The notes beneath the pieces are model-generated. The model was given only the letters and a program-made list of their open reading frames with translations. It did no database searches and was not told where the DNA came from. From Chytridium lagenaria (taxonomy: Eukaryota > Chytridiomycota > Chytridiomycetes > Chytridiales > Chytridiaceae), in the NCBI GenBank assembly GCA_025449115.1, contig JAHLKC010000008.1, positions 62,001 through 126,000 of the forward strand: a DNA stretch of 64,000 nucleotides, given 5' to 3'. Shown here in pieces: positions 18,899 through 58,200 of the stretch. The stretch's first letter is position 1; each line of letters starts with the position of its first letter. The position numbers and the translations under genes were made by a program.

Positions 18899-20772
18899 TT
18901 AGAATCCGAACCCATCAAAAGTCTTTGAATTTGTCCTTGTAAGGGTCCTGCCCTGGGACCCATAAGGCTCATGATTCTCATCATACCGATCAAAATTACT
19001 GGTATCTCCCTCATGCCCAATTCTGGGTTGATAAGGAGACGGGATTTCAAGGTTAACAAGCTTGTTCCAGTCAACATCAGAGAACCAACGATGGCGTTTG
19101 ATGTCGTCGGCACCAGCCTTAAGGTTACCGTACCGCTTGGACAAGTCGGGGTGAGTAGACGCTTGACAAGATCTTTCGCGAGAGGGTCAAAGTGAGGTGG
19201 GAACCGAAGCTTGCATGCAAGAATCTTCTCGTAAAGTTTAAAGTGGTCATCGTCAAAGAAGGGTGGGTGGCCAGCAATCATCTTCAAGGTTACAGTCTAT
19301 CGTTAGATTCCAAGGTATAAATTGGGAATTTAAATAAAGCGCTAACCTCATAAATGAGAATACCAAGAGCCCACCAGTCAACAGCTTTTCCGTAACCCTT
19401 AGATTGGATAATTTCGGGTGCAAGGTAATCGGGGTACCGCAAAGCGTCCAAGTCACATCTGGAACCACCTTTGCAAAACCAAAATCGGTAATTTTGATGT
19501 GGCCCTTTGCGTCGATAAGAAGATTCTAATGAAGAGAGAAAAATTGGTTTAATAATCTCATCCGTGTTCAAGAATACACGGACCAGAGGAAAGGACCTAC
19601 CTCAGGCTTCAAATCACGATAAATAATATCTTTGCTATGCAAGTATTCAAACGCCATCACAACCTCAGCCGCATAGAATTTTGCGATGTGATTAGGAAAT
19701 CTCCCGCTCTTTCTCAAGTAGCTGAAAAGTTCACCACCCTGCACGTACTCCAACACAAGATACAAGTTGGCTGAATCTTGGAACGCCCCTAAAAGCCCAA
19801 CAAGGAAGGGGAAATCCAGCCGCTCCAAGATATGCTTCTCATTGATTGTGTGCTCGACCTGTCGAAGCCTCACCACATCCACCTTTCTCAGCACCTTCAT
19901 AGCAAAATGCTTTCCAGTGGCTTTGAGCTGAACAAGATGCACACGACCAAAAGAACCGGTGCCAAGGGTGTTCAGGATAAGGAAATCGTTGAGGTTGAAG
20001 GACTGTCGCGAGTTTCCGATATTTGTCGAGACTGCCGCCAGCGACGATTCGACTAGAGCCGCGATGGAGCGACGCGATGTCATGGGCATGGATGGAGGTT
20101 GCATCAAGCCTAAGTTGTTATTTTGAACGTTATAATAGTTGGCGTAGGCGTCTTGATGAGCCTGTTGTGGTTGTTGCTGTGGAGGTCTTTGTTGTGTGTA
20201 GTCATCCATCTTTATTTGCGGTCCGCCCTTTGGAAGTGCAGAGGAGGAGTCAGAGTGGTGATACTGTCCTTGGCTGTCTGAGGATGTGGTGCCAGTCACA
20301 GAAGTGTTGAACGCAATTGATCTTGATGCCGAATCCGCAAGATTATTTGCAGCTGCCTTGACACTGACCTTTCGGGAGTTTGGAGATGTAGCTCGGGGAG
20401 TTGCGCTTTTGTTGGGCGTCAAAGTTCCTTTTGAGGACGTCAGAACCTTTCCGGTACCAGACAGAGCGATTCCGTCCTTCTCGATCCTTTTAATATCAGG
20501 TAACCGTTGTGTGGATCCTGCAGTTCCAGTGGCTGCGGAGCAGGTGTTGTTGGGGGCCGAGAGATGCTCTTTAAAGATCCTTTGGCAGAAGACGAACGAC
20601 TTAATCCAACTCCAGAGTTTCCGTTTGCAGCAAGACTTAAACTTGCCATAGACGATGAGAGCTGAGCTTCACGACCTTGAATATCCGGAAGAGGTACTAC
20701 ACCACTGCTGTTCACGCTTGTTGCCTTGGGGGGCATTCTTGGGGAACCAGTTGCAGTAGGTGTCCCGGCCAT
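18899..20772 (-). CDS. cAMP-dependent protein kinase catalytic subunit (PKA/TPK)
   Basis: AGC kinase with every PKA landmark: glycine loop GTGSFGRV (about 19960), AMKVL lysine, catalytic loop YRDLKPE (about 19610), DFGFAK, activation loop [11 protein letters not shown], and a C-terminal tail ending FDGF plus two residues. The catalytic core is preceded by about 230 Ser/Gln-rich residues, longer than animal PKA but usual for fungal Tpk proteins. It acts in cytosol and nucleus once released from its regulatory subunit. Frame breaks occur exactly inside conserved motifs: between GTP and DYLAPE (C run, plus-strand G4 at 19431-19434) and between LLTP and DLSKRYGNL (G4 at 19148-19151). Both are fixed by one extra C on the coding strand, so assembly indels are the likely cause. 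A further frame ambiguity lies in the disordered N-terminus near 20510-20560. Introns are visible near 19270-19345 and 19525-19600. Confidence 0.9.
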
Positions 20773-47561: not shown

Positions 47562-50500
47562 CTACCTCCATCCACCTTGTTGAGGTTGTGGTTGCGCTGC
47601 CGCAGTCTCATCACCACCCTGTTGCATCTCCGCACCACCCTGTTGCATCTCGGCACCACCTTGTTGCATCTCGGCACCTCCCTGTTGCGTCTCACCACCA
47701 CCTTGCTGCACCTCACCACCTCCCTGCACCTCACCACCACCCTGTTGCATCTCCGCGCCGCCACCACCACCACCACGCGCCGCCGCCGCCACGACCACCG
47801 CCACCGCTAAAAAAAAAAACAAAAGCGTCAACGCCAAATCCAGCACCAAAAAAAACAACAAAAAAACCAAAAATCCACTCACAATCGACGTCCACGTCCA
47901 CGTCTACGACCACCGCCACACCACCACGACGCCACCAAACTGTCTACTAATAGCGTTTCTGGCCCTACCAAACGAAAAAAAAAACGTTACAAAGCGTCAC
48001 GACAGAGAGCGAGAGAGGGGATACACGAAACGAAAAAAAAAGAGATGTAGGAGCCAAGAAAGAATCTACAAACCTATTCCTAGCCCACCCCTTAAACCGG
48101 TTCATCCTACACAAAAAAAGAAAAAAGAATCAGTCAACACCACCTCTTACCCACTAAAAAAAAAAAAAATTCCCATACCCCTGTTGAGCCCTACAAAAAA
48201 CAAAAACGCATCAGCATCCTTATCCCTCAACAAAAAAAAGACGAAAAGTACTCACATCCCCCTCATCCGCTTCCTCGCATACCCTTTAGCCTGTCCAAGT
48301 GCATTCTTGGCCCTACGCAACAAAAAAAGAGAAGGAGGGGGCCGTCAACCACTGCAACCAAAAAAAAAAGAAAAGAAAAGCCAAACATGGTAAAAAAACT
48401 CACATCCCCCTCAAAGCGCCCTTGAATCCACCACTCGCCATGTTCCGCGAAAACCCACGCATTCTAAAAAAAACCGCGTTAAAGAGACGACGACCGGGGG
48501 AAAAAAAAATTACAAAACTCACAATCCACCCAACCCCACGTCCACGTCCACCACCACCACCACCACCAGCAAGGTTACGAAGCCTACAAAAAAAAAGGCG
48601 GGGAAACCCCAACATCATCAACCACATATACACAACAAAGAAAACCCAACGAGAAAGAAAAACAAAGAAAAAAACATCTACTCACATCCCACCAGCCTTC
48701 CTCAACATCCCTCCAAACCCTCCACGTCCACCACCACGTCCACCAGCAAGGTTACGAAGCCTATGAAAAAAAAAAGGGGAAACCCCAAAATCGTCAGCCA
48801 ACATATACACCTGTCCAAAACAACAAACAGAAACAAGCACAACAAAAAAAAAAAACAGAAAACATCTACTCACATTCCACCACCAGCCTTCCTCAACATC
48901 CCTCCAAACCCTCCACCACCACCACGTCCACCAGCAAGGTTACGAAGCCTACAAAAAAAAAAAAATCGTCAACCATCATACACACCTCTCCCCAAACCAA
49001 CAAAACCAACAAAACCAAAAACACAACCACACAAAAAAAAACCACAAAAAACAAAAACAGTCTACTCACATTCCACCACCAGCCTTCCTCAACATCCCTC
49101 CAAACCCTCCCCGTCCACCACCACCTCTCAACATATTCTTCGCAAACCCACCAAGCCTATTTCCCAAAAAAAAAAAAAACATCAACAACAATCCCAACAA
49201 AAAACCGCAAAAAAAAACAAACACTCACATCCCCTTGACACCACTCCCCGTCCCCCTCATCAAAGCTTTAGCAGCCCTACAAAAAAAAATACCCGTCAAC
49301 ATCACCCCAAAGAACACAAAAACACGACTTCAATATACTCACATCCTCCAAACCCTCCTCCCATACCCCCACTCAACCCCTTCTTCAACATATTCTTCGC
49401 AAATCCACGTGCCCTAAAAAAAAAAAAACACAAGGGTCAACAACATCTCAAGAAAACAAAAAAAGCACGCATGACTTACATCCCTCCAAAACCCACGTCC
49501 TTTACTCTTAATCATGTTCTTTGCAAACCCACCAAGCCTGTACATAAACAAAAAAGCGTCAAAAAAAAACATCAAAAGTCGTCATCGTTATGACAAAAAA
49601 AAAAAAGCGTCCAAAAAAAACCATATCGTCAAAAAAAAAAGGAGGTAATGGTTTTTACCACAAAAAAAAACACAGAAAAACAAGGGAGTCCAACAACCAC
49701 TTCCCCAGAGAAACAAGAAAAACAAAACAGCACGCATGACTCACATCCCTCCAAGCCCACGTCCTTTACTCTTAATCATGTTCTTCGCAAACCGCCAAGC
49801 CTGTACAAAAAAAAGAGCGTCAAAAAAAAAGTCGTCATGGTTTCAAGACAAAAAAAAAAGCGTCCAAAAAAAACCCATAACGTCAAAAAACCAAACCAAT
49901 AAAAAAATCATCGTCATAGTCTAAAACAAACTTACATTCCACCCAACCCACGCCAGCAGCACCTCCACGCAACATGCCTCCAATCTTCCCAAACCTAAAA
50001 AAAAAATAATAAGTTTCCCGAAAACCACAATAAAAAAAAAAAAATCACATACAATCCCCCACGACCGCCACCACCGCCTTGTTGGTTTCTAAAAACAAAG
50101 CTCGTCAGAAAAAAAAGGCGCAGAGTTTAAAAAGCGTTTTTAAAAATTACCGGTTGCTAAAAAAAAAAACAAACGTTAGATCGATGACATTGGGGGGGAG
50201 AAATGATGGGTACTTACCGGTTGGTTCTATATCGAGAAAGGTGGTGTGATGGAAAAAGGGAAAAGGTTAGTCGCCAAGAAAAATAAGGGGGCGGAGGGGG
50301 GGAAGACTTACAATTTGTTGAACCTAGAGGAAAGCGAAAGGAAAAAAAGATAAAGGTAAGACATCGACGATGAAAAGAAGCCGTAAACTCGTGAGACTTA
50401 CTGGTCCTTGGCACTACAACAACAAAAGTCAGAACTATGTCAACACAAAAAAAAAAAGTGACATGGAACTTACAAGCTCTTGATTCTAATGTATCAAGTG

Positions 50501-52605
50501 AAAAAAAAGGGGTATAAGTCACAGGCTATCCGAAAAAACTGCAGCTTCAACGATCTTACCGATCCTTTGCGCTAAAAAAAGGGGGGAAAGTCAGTCCACG
50601 CGTGTACAGCCAAAAAAGAACAAGGGATACTCACAAACTCTTAATCCTGTTGGTGATTGCCTTTTTGGTGCTAAAAGAAGGAAGAAGAAAGCGTTAGCAA
50701 AGAAAACAGGGATGACGAGGGGGGACATGACTCACAATTTCTGTCCACTAAAGACGCAAAGAAAAAGGAACGCGGGTTAGTTTTCTCCCCCAATGGTAAA
50801 GATGTGAGCGACGCTTACAGTTTCTTGAGACTAAAAGGAGGGGAAATTGTTAAATACGAAAAAAAAAAAACAAAGGAAGAAGATGGACATACCCATTCTT
50901 GGCGCTATAAAGATCGAGGAGATGCGATGAAGAGGGTGAGTTTTATGAAAAAGATTGGTTGGAAGAGCGTTGTTTCGGTGACTTACAGTTGTTTCAAACT
51001 AATGAAAAAGGGGAGATGATTAGAAAAATGGCTTTTTGAAGAGAAAGAAAAACAATAGGCACGTACCCGCCACTCATCCTAGATAAAGACGGAAACAAGA
51101 AGGAATGATTCGGTTAAGACTTTGATGGACGCGATGGTGATGTTGGGAAAGGCATGACTTACATTTTCTTGAGACTATAAAAAAAGAGGTGGTTAGAGAT
51201 GTCATGCAGAAAGAAAATATTTGTTTTTGTTGTACGTACCCGCCACCAGCGCTGATGCGAAAGAGATTTGGAAATGGGGGAAAAGAGGGGTTACACTTTA
51301 GGAACACGTTTGACGGTAAAAAGCGGGTGTGGACTTACAGTTTCTTCATACTATAGAAAGAGGGAATAGGATTAGTGGGAATGTTTTGTAGAAGGAGGGG
51401 GGATGGGAAAAGGAGGTGACTCACCCTGCACCGATACTGCGAAAGGATAGGGAGAGGGAGTTTGATAAGTATACGAGATGAAAAGTAGATGGAGAAACCG
51501 CGTGAACGAGGACTTACAGCTTCTTGGCACTGTTTGTAGAAAAAAACGGGAAAGGTTAGGAAATTGTACAAACAAAGAGATCCACACAGTGTAAACTTAC
51601 CCCATACCGATACTACGTTATCGAAAAAAATTGGGAAGAATGATTAGGAGCGGTTGTGATGGTGTGAGGACCAAAGTATACGAAAAGTGATGACTTACGC
51701 CTTCTTGACACTGTTTAAAAAAAAGGAAGGTGGGGTTAGATAAATTCATACAAGAAAAAAGAAAGAGTAAAAGATGAACAGGGTTAAGTAGACTTACCCG
51801 AAAGCGACACTATAGGACGAGGAAAAGATGTACAAAGATAATTTGTGATTAGTGAATACTCTTGATGGCAGTGTGTATGTTTTCCAGCAGGGGATCGATG
51901 AAATGAAATACTTACGCCTTCTTGATACTGTTATATGGGAAGAAAAGGGAAAGAAGAAAAGAGTTAGAATAGATACACAATAGGATAGATAGGTCTGTAG
52001 AAATCAGGATAGGTTCAACTTACCCAATAACGGCACTGAGAGTAGGATGAGGAAAGAAGAAGAAGAGTTACTACATGAGGATTCAAAGCAAAGGGTATAA
52101 TGTCTTGATTGTTTGATAAAGGTTTTGGACTTACAGCTTCTTGATACTGTTTTAGAAAAGAGTAAAAAAGGAGATTAGCATTTCAACTCTTTGTAGATAC
52201 AAAAGAAAAATATTATGCGAGATTGGACTTACCCAAGGCGATACTGAATGACATGAACGAGATAAAAAAAAAAACCGTGAATAAAAAGGAATTGGTCAGT
52301 GACAGGTTTCAACACCACCGACCAAAAAAAGGAAATGAAAGAAAAGGAACATACAGTGGAAGAAAGGGAAAGATATTTTCTTCCTGCTCATCATCACCCT
52401 TTCCGTCACCACGTCCACGAGGACCACCTCTCCTCAGACCCCGACCAGGTGGCATACCCATGGGAGGTCTAAATCCACCACCTCCATAAGGTGACATTCC
52501 GGACCCAGAGAATCCACTTTGGGCAGGTCTATCCATGACAAACTGAGCAGAGACCATCTGCAGCAAGAGCATGAGCACCAGGCTCAACGCTCTTAATTGC
52601 TTCAT
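47562..52605 (-). CDS. secreted micro-exon gene: tandem 12-nt exons encoding a KK/G octad repeat, Gly-rich C-terminus
   Basis: ATG at 52605 (exon 1: 52355-52605) encodes a signal peptide (KQLRALSLVLMLLLQMVSA) and a Gly/Pro/Arg-rich segment, ending in phase 2. About 40 further exons follow, bounded by GT-AG introns of mostly 58-111 nt. Exons 3-18 and 20-23 are each exactly 12 nt; exon 2 is 11 nt in this sequence, probably 12 with one missing C. Others are 36, 9, 6 and 36 nt. All keep phase 2-2, so each microexon adds one tetrapeptide: I-K-K-L, A-V-I-G, I-K-K-A, V-A-F-G and so on. From 50088 down, exons lengthen to 48-87 nt and become Gly/Arg/Met-rich (LGGFAKNM, LRNLAGG, FGGMLRKAGG). The last exon (47562-47806) ends with AEMQQGG repeats. 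Total about 555 residues. A few long exons (49936, 49745, 49480, 48523, 47883) are one base off phase. No family recognised; extracellular structural or membrane-active roles are guesses. Confidence 0.82.
47590..47760 (-). repeat. 21-nt coding repeat (AEMQQGG / GEVQQGG)
   Basis: Within the last exon, a 21-nt unit (ATGCAACAGGGTGGTG plus C/GAG) recurs about seven times with small changes. It encodes Glu-Met/Val/Thr-Gln-Gln-Gly-Gly heptads just before the PQPQQGGWR terminus. Confidence 0.85.
47883..50088 (-). repeat. Gly-rich exon series of the micro-exon gene
   Basis: Exons at 50053-50088, 49936-49994, 49745-49800, 49480-49537, 49343-49413, 49229-49276, 49070-49156, 48874-48948, 48686-48760, 48523-48583, 48404-48463, 48256-48312, 48179-48190 (12 nt), 48074-48106 and 47883-47964. 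Adjacent pairs are near copies: 49745-49800 with 49480-49537, and 48874-48948 with 48686-48760. This again shows exon-plus-intron tandem duplication. The introns are very A-rich on the plus strand. Products repeat GGFAKNM and FGGMLRKAGG units. Confidence 0.75.
50151..52243 (-). repeat. array of 24 consecutive exons (21 of them about 12 nt) with their introns
   Basis: Exons (plus coordinates) in transcription order: 52233-52243, 52135-52146, 52024-52035, 51916-51927, 51798-51809, 51699-51710, 51601-51612, 51518-51529, 51425-51436, 51339-51350, 51240-51251, 51163-51174, 51067-51078, 50987-50998, 50893-50904, 50819-50830, 50736-50747, 50635-50670 (36 nt), 50560-50571, 50474-50485, 50402-50413, 50312-50323, 50218-50226 (9 nt), 50151-50156 (6 nt). 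Each is flanked on the coding strand by AG on its 5' side and GTAAGT, GTGAGT, GTACGT or a similar donor on its 3' side. The odd/even alternation (xAAGAAxx versus GG-ending exons) indicates growth by duplication of a two-exon unit of about 150-200 bp. Confidence 0.85.
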
Positions 52606-55299: not shown

Positions 55300-58200
55300 T
55301 CACTCCCCTTCCACCTCTTCAGGAATACCCTTTTTCACAGCCTTCGCCGCTTTCTGTCCCCCCTCAAAAAACTCTTTAAACTTGCCCACAAACTGCTCAC
55401 AAATCTCTGGCGTCTCATACTCCAACCTCAACTGAAACGGTTTAATCTTCAACCCCTTCACCTCGGCTCTAGGATTCATCACATTCACATACGTGTTCTC
55501 CGTCACAACCATCACTTCAGGTGCCAAATGAAACGCTCTCGCCCTCTCCGGTTCCTCCACCGCCACCCAAACCCGATCCCCCAACCGATTCATCGACAAA
55601 TACCCTTCATACCATCTACTCCAAAACGGCGTCGTTTTGATTTGAAATATAATCGCCCCCATATCCTGAAACTTGAACGCGAGAAGCTCCTCCTTCTCAT
55701 CTTTCGTGTCATCTTCATCCACATCCGTGACTGCGCTTTTGGCGTATCCGTTCCGCTTCGATCCGGATGCGCTGCCTAACGAGGAATCACCTTTAGGCGT
55801 GTTGCGGGCGGCAAAGTAGATGGTGAGGACTTTGGATCCAAACATGGAGATGAGGGTGAATGTTGTCAATGTCCACACAGCGACCGTTCGGATCATGATG
55901 TTCCAAGCGGATGGTTCCATGGTCAGAAGGATAGGTAGGATGGTGGATCCTACAAACACAAAGGCGACCACGACGGCGGACATGAAGACGGATTCACTGT
56001 ATGATGCGTGAACGTTCCGAGTGAGGTAGGAGAGGTATCCGGCGAGGATGATCATGGAGACGTTGTAAAACGTATAAAGCAATCACAATCATTTGTTCAC
56101 GAGGGTCATTGGAACTACAGACGTAGATGAACATTTCCTCTGAATTGACGAAAAGCGTAGGTTGAACATTCGTGAGCCCCGTTCGAAGGGCCAACAACAA
56201 GGCTTCGATACCGACAAACAACACCGTCGCGCAAAGAAGCGGAGGATCTTTCATGTACTTTAACAACGTCCCGTTATTGTTATTAAAGAGGTAGTAGACA
56301 CGAGCGTTCTTGACAACGATGGACCCAAAAACCATGGAGAAACCTATGAGAGGAACCAGAGTTGAAGTTCACAGCTGGCTTGGTTCACGCGACCGATAAA
56401 GAAGACGTTGGAGGCGTAGGAGAAGAGTGTGCCAATCACAAAGACCACGCAGAACGGAGGAGATGCCGTTTTAAACACTTTTTGGTCCCGGTAGACGAGG
56501 ACAATGATGAAACAGGACATGGAGAAGAAGATGCCGGTGACTTCTAATACTATAAGGGTGATCCCACCCCCTGAGGCGAGGTTGTTGACGGATTCGTAGG
56601 AACTATGGGGATTGGGCGGTCTAAAGGAGGAATGCTGGAGCCTGTATTTCTATTAGCAAATGATAATGATGGGGGGCGTTTACCATTGTAGAAAGTAGGC
56701 GATCCTTGTATTGTAATATTTTTACCGCTAATATCAGTGACAGCAAAAGCGTTAGGCCGACTAAAAGAATTGACCGTCCGAAAATTATCTCCAGTAAGAC
56801 TCGTGAACATATAAGACCTATTGATCATGCATTCATTAGAATTATTTCTGGGGATCCTTTTTTTTGCACTTACACACTCAAATCTCCTTGTTCGTTCAAT
56901 AAAATCGGATCGTAGGTGACTCCTGAGTAGCTTGTATTTCGAAAAGCGGCGAAACCAAGGTGAGGCTTTAAAGCCCCGTTGACCAACATTTGAGGGGTAA
57001 CGTTTCGGGCCCATGGCCTTTTTTTTGTGTGAAAGGGAAAAAAACCTCTTGTTAACAGGCAGGTATACTAGGGGAATCGGGGGCATGACAACACAATGAA
57101 AAGAAACCACCAAAAGCAAGTGAAAGAACGACAAATAAATAAATAACTGTGAAAGGAAAAAAACCTCTTGTTAACAGGCAGATATACTAGGGGAATCGGG
57201 GCCATGACAACAACAACACAATGAAAAGAAACCACCAAAAGCAAGTGAAAGAACGACAAATAAAAATAAATAACGATACAATAAAGATTCGTCAACAAGC
57301 AGGTGAACGAAAACAAATCGAAAAATGACATAAAAGATAAAGATTTTTTTACAAATAAACAAAGATTTTAAAAATGATCTCAAACCTGTGTCATCCCAAT
57401 TAGCATCGTCTTCACGCAATCATACCCCTCCGCAGCATACCGAGGTAGTTCTCCATTAGGCATCATATACCTACATCACAATAAACATGGCGGTAAAACA
57501 CCCCTTCAAACTTACTTTTGCGGGTTACTCTGACTCAACTGGTTTCCACTTTTGTCGGAATCCTTTCACACTTGGAACTTCAGGACCAGGTCGATCACTT
57601 CTCACCAATGTGAAACCTTGAATATCCTTGGAATTCACTATACAAAAACCATCAATGGACTAAAATCACGGTGTACAAAACCTTGCTCTGCATTATCATA
57701 AGGCGGATTTGTCCCAATCCACGCAAACTGAGGGCCAACAAGAGAAGGGTTGCTAAAAAAAAACAAACCACCACATCAGCCTCCAAAAAAAAAAACAAAC
57801 CAAACACATACTTTCTCATCGCGGATCGATAAACCTGCATCGTGACCGTCGAATTGGCAATGACAATGATATACCTCGCCTTCAAATTATTGATCACCTG
57901 AAACGGATAACTAAAATCATTCTGACTCAACGATTCCATCGATATCTCCATTTTCGTGAGCAACGTCACGTTGAACGTCGTGGCAGTGTTTAACGTTGTC
58001 TCAATGTCATTCGCGTCTATTCATGATGTTCAGGGTTGCGTCGTTAGAAGGGGGTGGGATTCGGTACCTGCAGTGTTGCGATCTTCGGGGCTAGAACCAT
58101 GGCTACACGGGTCACGTTCCATCGTTGGAGGAGAAGGAGAACGTGTGTGCCTATGCCGGTTCCCGGTTGCATACGGAAAAAATAGGGATAGTTGAATTTA

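Follow-up and report, generated by a model that had tools for sequence, protein, structure and literature searches.

The minus strand of the 64,000-nucleotide stretch of DNA analysed here (the window) carries at 52605-47562 what is probably a protein-coding gene with spliced exons, belonging to a fungus that is most likely flagellated. A chain of its exons, each of exactly 12 nt and most likely multiplied by tandem duplication, would encode a secreted and strongly cationic repeat protein. The initial annotation of this region had proposed a fungal chain of symmetrical micro-exons, and that proposal is supported by the splice signals, the branch points, a coding-type constraint on the exons, a first exon that by eye resembles a signal peptide, and fungal and flagellar markers in the host genome; the protein is probably secreted.

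Splice sites listed from the sequence give a model of 41 exons. Between a first exon of 251 nt and a final one of 245 nt, the end of which (47562) is adopted from the initial annotation, stand 39 internal exons. As annotated, the first exon ends in phase 2; it spans 52605-52355 and its donor is GTATGT. The internal exons include 21 of exactly 12 nt, 27 are no longer than 36 nt, and 32 have a length divisible by 3. An array at 52146-50312 accounts for twenty of the 12-nt exons and one more is found at 48190-48179, in agreement with the at least 20 originally counted; the array additionally contains exons of 36, 9, 6 and 36 nt, every one a multiple of 3. The 25 introns of exons 1-26 are each 60-111 nt long, which matches the reported spacing of 60-110 nt, and the 3' half (49994-47562) consists mostly of larger exons. 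Exon length increases along the gene (Spearman 0.69, the exons not being independent of one another), a rise that would fit intron loss from the 3' end. The exons are listed here with coordinates, strand and content.

Exon 1, 52355..52605 (-): 251 nt, opens with ATG and what looks by eye like a signal peptide, followed by a Gly/Arg-rich and then an acidic spacer; phase 2 at its end, donor GTATGT
Exon 2, 52233..52243 (-): 11 nt, breaks the frame if included
Exon 3, 52135..52146 (-): 12 nt, IKK
Exon 4, 52024..52035 (-): 12 nt, AVI
Exon 5, 51916..51927 (-): 12 nt, IKK
Exon 6, 51798..51809 (-): 12 nt, VAF
Exon 7, 51699..51710 (-): 12 nt, VKK
Exon 8, 51601..51612 (-): 12 nt, IGM
Exon 9, 51518..51529 (-): 12 nt, AKK
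Exon 10, 51425..51436 (-): 12 nt, IGA
Exon 11, 51339..51350 (-): 12 nt, MKK
Exon 12, 51240..51251 (-): 12 nt, AGG
Exon 13, 51163..51174 (-): 12 nt, LKK
Exon 14, 51067..51078 (-): 12 nt, MSG
Exon 15, 50987..50998 (-): 12 nt, LKQ
Exon 16, 50893..50904 (-): 12 nt, AKN
Exon 17, 50819..50830 (-): 12 nt, LKK
Exon 18, 50736..50747 (-): 12 nt, GQK
Exon 19, 50635..50670 (-): 36 nt (3 x 12), TKKAITNRIKS, with an internal CAG exactly 12 nt upstream of its own donor
Exon 20, 50560..50571 (-): 12 nt, AKD
Exon 21, 50474..50485 (-): 12 nt, IKS
Exon 22, 50402..50413 (-): 12 nt, AKD
Exon 23, 50312..50323 (-): 12 nt, FNK
Exon 24, 50218..50226 (-): 9 nt
Exon 25, 50151..50156 (-): 6 nt, weak donor GTAATT
Exon 26, 50053..50088 (-): 36 nt, NQQGGGGGRGG
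Exon 27, 49936..49994 (-): 59 nt, Gly/Arg-rich, not a multiple of 3
Exon 28, 49745..49800 (-): 56 nt, not a multiple of 3; the uncorrected reading ends here
Exon 29, 49480..49537 (-): 58 nt, near copy of exon 28, not a multiple of 3
Exon 30, 49343..49413 (-): 71 nt, not a multiple of 3
Exon 31, 49229..49276 (-): 48 nt
Exon 32, 49070..49156 (-): 87 nt
Exon 33, 48874..48948 (-): 75 nt, tandem copy including intron
Exon 34, 48686..48760 (-): 75 nt, tandem copy including intron
Exon 35, 48523..48583 (-): 61 nt, tandem copy, not a multiple of 3
Exon 36, 48404..48463 (-): 60 nt
Exon 37, 48256..48312 (-): 57 nt
Exon 38, 48179..48190 (-): 12 nt, AQQ, donor GTATGG
Exon 39, 48074..48106 (-): 33 nt, donor GTTTGT (uncertain)
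Exon 40, 47883..47964 (-): 82 nt, not a multiple of 3
Exon 41 (last), 47562..47806 (-): GGAEMQQ-like repeats, as assembled not open in one frame

Every one of the 20 array exons of 12 nt is preceded by YAG and followed by GTRNG, consistent with the AG and GTAAGT-like boundaries first noted there. The combined pattern YAG-N12-GTRNG occurs at 21 sites in the 2,030-nt array; 20 are the exons themselves and one is formed by the final 12 nt of a 36-nt exon. Dinucleotide shuffling (n=200) yields 0.055 such sites on average, and when exon lengths of 3-60 are scanned in the array none but 12 gives more than two sites. The longest unbroken chain of such sites has 21 members; neither 1000 shuffles nor the remainder of the window, both strands included, yield a chain longer than 1. 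Twelve 10-kb samples of the genome (120 kb of 41.9 Mb) give a longest chain of 1 against 21 in the window, or of 3 against 25 when site lengths of 3-30 are mixed. A stricter scan of 39 sources with a pyrimidine filter finds a chain of 16 in the window and of 10 in a second record of the micro-exon gene; all other sources stay at 2 or fewer for lengths divisible by 3 and at 3 or fewer for the remaining lengths. Sampling on this scale is too small to rule out other arrays. CTRAY branch points lie 12-60 nt from the intron end in 17 of the 25 introns of exons 1-26, for which shuffling within introns predicts a mean of 5.07 and a maximum of 10 (n=500). The array architecture is real, and very unlikely to have arisen by chance. 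In exon 19, use of the internal CAG as an alternative acceptor could possibly give a 12-nt form; the exon could have arisen by fusion through intron loss, or could never have been split.

The donors of the array are strong and uniform. GTAAGT begins 15 of its 25 introns and none of 13 placed introns in the CCT chaperonin genes of the same genome (Fisher p = 0.00028). The latter were placed by family matches: 20 junctions were examined and the 13 with an exact-fit join were kept, the 7 dropped being 3 without a join and 4 with inexact joins only, and GTAAGT is present in no candidate displayed there. In the 3' part of the micro-exon gene itself the donors are mostly GTGAGT (10 of 15, with GTAAGT in 2 of 15), so the uniformity within the array may also be a trace of duplication.

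Exons 3-26 (327 nt) are open throughout in the frame left by exon 1; with exon 1 joined to exon 3, this much stands of the stop-free single-frame chain that had been described. The other two frames reach their first stop after 32 codons (5 stops) and after 73 codons (1 stop), and the earlier statement that stops appear quickly in both is therefore too strong. The array peptide reads LIKK LAVI GIKK AVAF GVKK AIGM GAKK LIGA GMKK LAGG GLKK and continues beyond, a pair of exons corresponding to an octapeptide Lys-Lys repeat of the type G-x-K-K-x-x-x-x. In exons 3-18, KK-type and Gly-type exons follow each other in turn, with identities of 0.70 within the odd exons, 0.41 within the even exons and 0.32 between them, an alternation reached by 7 of 20,000 permutations of exon order; the last two even exons, 16 and 18, deviate from the Gly type. 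Intron stretches of equal length are 0.23-0.40 identical, the introns being random to one another. Across the eight odd exons, positions 1 and 2 of the Lys codons show one change in 32 letters, and the third base of the second Lys codon is G in four and A in four. A profile built from nine exons and run against the 64 kb returns those nine and four further array exons (E 0.015 to 0.54), and up to E=10 it matches nothing more. The sites, phases, repeat code and constraint can thus be read from the DNA itself. The 101 array residues have a net charge of +26, and exons 1 and 3-26 together encode 192 residues with eight KK pairs, no KR and no cysteine. Pfam searches with exons 1 and 3-26 and with the peptides of the 3' exons return no family, and a search of solved structures with the reading gives a single match at E=1.8, which is not meaningful.

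No second copy of exon 1, the array or the 3' exons was found in the genome, where the exon 1 protein and the array DNA each match only themselves. The 3' exon protein has three matches, all within the micro-exon gene, and the 3' DNA has four. One of these is itself; the other three are short (107, 49 and 49 bases), involve the beginning of exon 41 with its many Gly codons, and were rejected as further copies because of their low complexity. A 19-letter pattern of the KK exons, allowed one mismatch, has eight sites in the genome, seven of them in the micro-exon gene; its reversed control also has eight, so only the clustering is telling. As to the host, the Chitin_synth_1N family marks fungi, and the Radial_spoke and Tektin families mark flagella. 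The genome has six matches to Chitin_synth_1N and one to Radial_spoke (E 1.5e-6), which fits a flagellated fungus.

A plausible course of events, from DNA to product, can be proposed. Exon 1 would supply the signal peptide and a short acidic spacer, and the 12-nt exons, each split after the second base of a codon (phase 2-2), would encode the octapeptide repeat in pairs, so that the predicted product is a secreted cationic repeat followed by Gly/Arg/Lys-rich repeats. The array grew most likely by tandem duplication of exon-plus-intron units, the symmetry of the exons leaving the frame unharmed. Tandem exon-plus-intron units are seen at 48547-49121, with a period of 188-196 nt and 78-82% matches, and apparently represent recent growth of the 3' part; the array may be an older round of the same kind of duplication, with exons kept and introns saturated. 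Joining of the 12-nt exons would most likely proceed by intron definition, one intron after another, the introns being short and their donors near-perfect. Where an exon is too small to be recognised by exon definition, studies in C. elegans and mouse cells support intron definition, and there a shortened flanking intron relieves the requirement for PRP-40 (PMC8378409). The short introns and strong donors of the micro-exon gene fit intron definition of that kind. Splicing in vivo, its order and the secretion of the product we infer from sequence, as we do a role as an extracellular polyanion-binding or membrane-active protein.

Several other candidates were tried and set aside. A structured noncoding RNA was rejected, as the part of the array that was folded (951 nt, 51300-52250) folds no better than its own shuffles (z +1.17, with 18 of 20 shuffles at least as stable). 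A minisatellite was rejected as well, with no tandem repeat reported within 50100-52300 and no likeness beyond random among the introns. A classic amphipathic helix over the array was dismissed on a moment that peaks over the core at 90 degrees and not at 100, and an 8-base donor-like word (1,525 in the genome) is rarer than its reversed control (2,868).

A number of observations weigh against the favoured reading. Eight of the 25 array introns have no CTRAY, the signal peptide in exon 1 was judged by eye only, the repeat period of 4 and 8 residues fits no classic amphipathic helix, and Tektin has no match in the genome. The identity among even exons (0.41) is barely above the highest value for an intron stretch (0.40); in this respect they differ little from introns, and the case for constraint comes chiefly from the KK exons. 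The 11 nt of exon 2, when included, shift the frame and give a stop after residue 120; the exon may owe its length to an indel in the assembly, may be dead and skipped, or may be a cassette that induces a stop. When it is skipped, exon 1 joins exon 3 in frame, and the reading then stops in exon 28, after residue 221 of a possible 552. In all, 7 of the 39 internal exons (2, 27-30, 35 and 40) are not multiples of 3. These lengths together with the early stop mean that the gene may be decaying, and a former micro-exon gene, now frameshifted and without a functional product, is an explanation that we regard as unlikely, since all 20 of the 12-nt array exons keep their length and the KK exons keep their codon pattern. 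The odd lengths reflect either assembly indels or decay. Exons 28 and 29 are near copies that differ, by eye, in single bases within runs of G or T, and a CCT chaperonin gene of the same assembly (L022, G000:C9, near 315815) has a 1-nt frameshift at a point where two family matches have 7 bases in common and no intron can be fitted. This is an assembly indel error or a damaged allele, and it means that such indels occur in this assembly outside the micro-exon gene; it is the only frameshift met in the CCT genes, where no systematic count was made, against seven odd lengths here.

Other explanations were weighed as well. Exon choice could generate many secreted variants, as proposed for the micro-exon genes of schistosomes: 26 of the 27 internal exons of at most 36 nt are multiples of 3, and those among exons 3-26 share one phase. 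Such symmetry follows equally from growth by duplication alone, and the strong, uniform donors argue for constitutive joining, so that a variation gene is possible yet doubtful. A broader proposal, which we advance tentatively and think rather improbable as a whole, is a fungal gene class independent of flatworms and aphids, in which the symmetrical 12-nt exon would be the unit both of growth and of choice, duplication adding tetrapeptides, exon choice producing a family of secreted cationic repeat peptides from a single-copy gene, and exon 2 acting as an on/off cassette. The KK pairs, spaced every eight residues in exons 3-13 and found again in exon 17, might instead be dibasic sites at which a precursor is cut into short peptides, one hexapeptide per exon pair, in the manner of fungal KEX2-processed repeat proteins. 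Kex2 prefers KR, and the spacers of those proteins are of KR type; the 192 residues contain no such pair, one site is KQ, and the stretches between KK sites vary from copy to copy, all of which leaves a peptide precursor with only a small chance. That the transcript is noncoding and its splice-like sites form a chance or selfish array would agree with the absence of any Pfam family or meaningful solved structure, but it is very improbable given the codon-position pattern, an open frame continuous with the signal-peptide-like exon, and conserved KK exons beside random introns. The favoured reading remains that of a gene coding for a secreted repeat protein.

The micro-exon gene is built like the micro-exon genes (MEGs) of schistosomes and the bicycle genes of aphids, a likeness of architecture and not of demonstrated membership in either group. 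In MEGs the coding region consists mostly of very small symmetrical exons, a signal peptide is present in all products, and the genes are apparently restricted to platyhelminths (PMC4350168); their flanking exons are long, micro-exons are shorter than 36 bp, and 26 of 33 are symmetrical in MEGs 26-32 (PMC4671649). The fungal gene shares the long 5' exon with a signal peptide, the long 3' exon and the central, mostly symmetrical micro-exons, and MEG products are secreted or membrane-anchored (PMC4350168, PMC4671649). Its flanking exons are 251 nt and 245 nt, 27 of its 39 internal exons are no longer than 36 nt, the signal peptide again being judged by eye, and 26 of the 27 small exons are symmetrical, compared with the 26 of 33 in MEGs 26-32 (PMC4671649). 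Exons of at most 36 nt account for 383 of 1668 exon nt over the whole model, or for 338 of 589 nt if the gene ended at exon 26. It differs in having one prevailing length (12 nt), an alternating two-exon octapeptide code, Gly-rich larger exons and no second copy found in its genome, and in a host whose Chitin_synth_1N and Radial_spoke matches do not point to a platyhelminth.

Bicycle genes have many small internal exons, nearly all starting at codon position 2, and about 17 exons on average, and the megacycle gene has more than 100 micro-exons (PMC9168663). Many micro-exons, a single common phase and effector-like proteins are the points of likeness (PMC9168663), whereas in the array each exon after exon 2 begins at codon position 3, not 2. 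The published bicycle classifier was applied with its printed coefficients, and each of the 39 internal exons was treated as phase 1 despite the deviant length of 7 of them. The resulting logit of -73.1 is below the cut-off; it would be 17.7 with the aphid phase throughout. The 192 residues of exons 1 and 3-26, without cysteine, hold no CYC motif, unlike bicycle proteins. Collagen and elastin are repeat proteins whose genes string together small symmetrical exons sized to the peptide repeat; these exons are several times longer, and the likeness noted is one of architecture.

The initial annotation held that such density of symmetrical micro-exons was described for schistosomes and not for fungi. 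The first part is too narrow, as the aphid bicycle genes show (PMC9168663), and for the second no fungal micro-exon chain turned up among the papers surveyed, a set largely without subscription journals. A 2024 paper on Trichoderma Xlr2 states that functional micro-exons were not previously described in filamentous fungi, calls its own case the first switch-like micro-exon in fungi, and refers to earlier work whose tests were confined to fission yeast (PMC11121469). Xlr2 is thus a micro-exon in a fungus, but a single switch-like one in a transcription factor and not a chain (PMC11121469).

The surroundings of the gene were also inspected. Opposite its 3' exons, 48763-49593 (+) is an open frame of 276 aa, rich in K, P and T, and probably a by-product of T-rich introns. 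The upstream neighbour, at 55300-56082 (-) with perhaps further exons towards 58200, is part of a class C receptor gene (7tm_3, E 4.5e-6, 26.9 bits, under the curated cut-off of 33.5), and at about 57030-57280, perhaps inside an intron of it, a stretch of some 120 bases is repeated nearly head to tail (by eye). Farther away, at 19568-20422 (-), lies part of a gene for a protein kinase whose N-terminus is rich in Gln (Pkinase, E 8.4e-33). Searches of the window found no Rfam match at gathering scores and no tRNA.

If spliced as read, the micro-exon gene would join a third lineage to flatworms and aphids as possessors of micro-exon chains in genes for secreted proteins, and its exons are strikingly uniform. 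It raises the question of how a spliceosome handles twenty 12-nt exons, each with just 12 nt between its acceptor and the donor that follows, and whether fast-evolving secreted proteins arise repeatedly by way of symmetrical micro-exons. Genes of this class would probably be missed in fungi by ordinary gene finders and short-read aligners.

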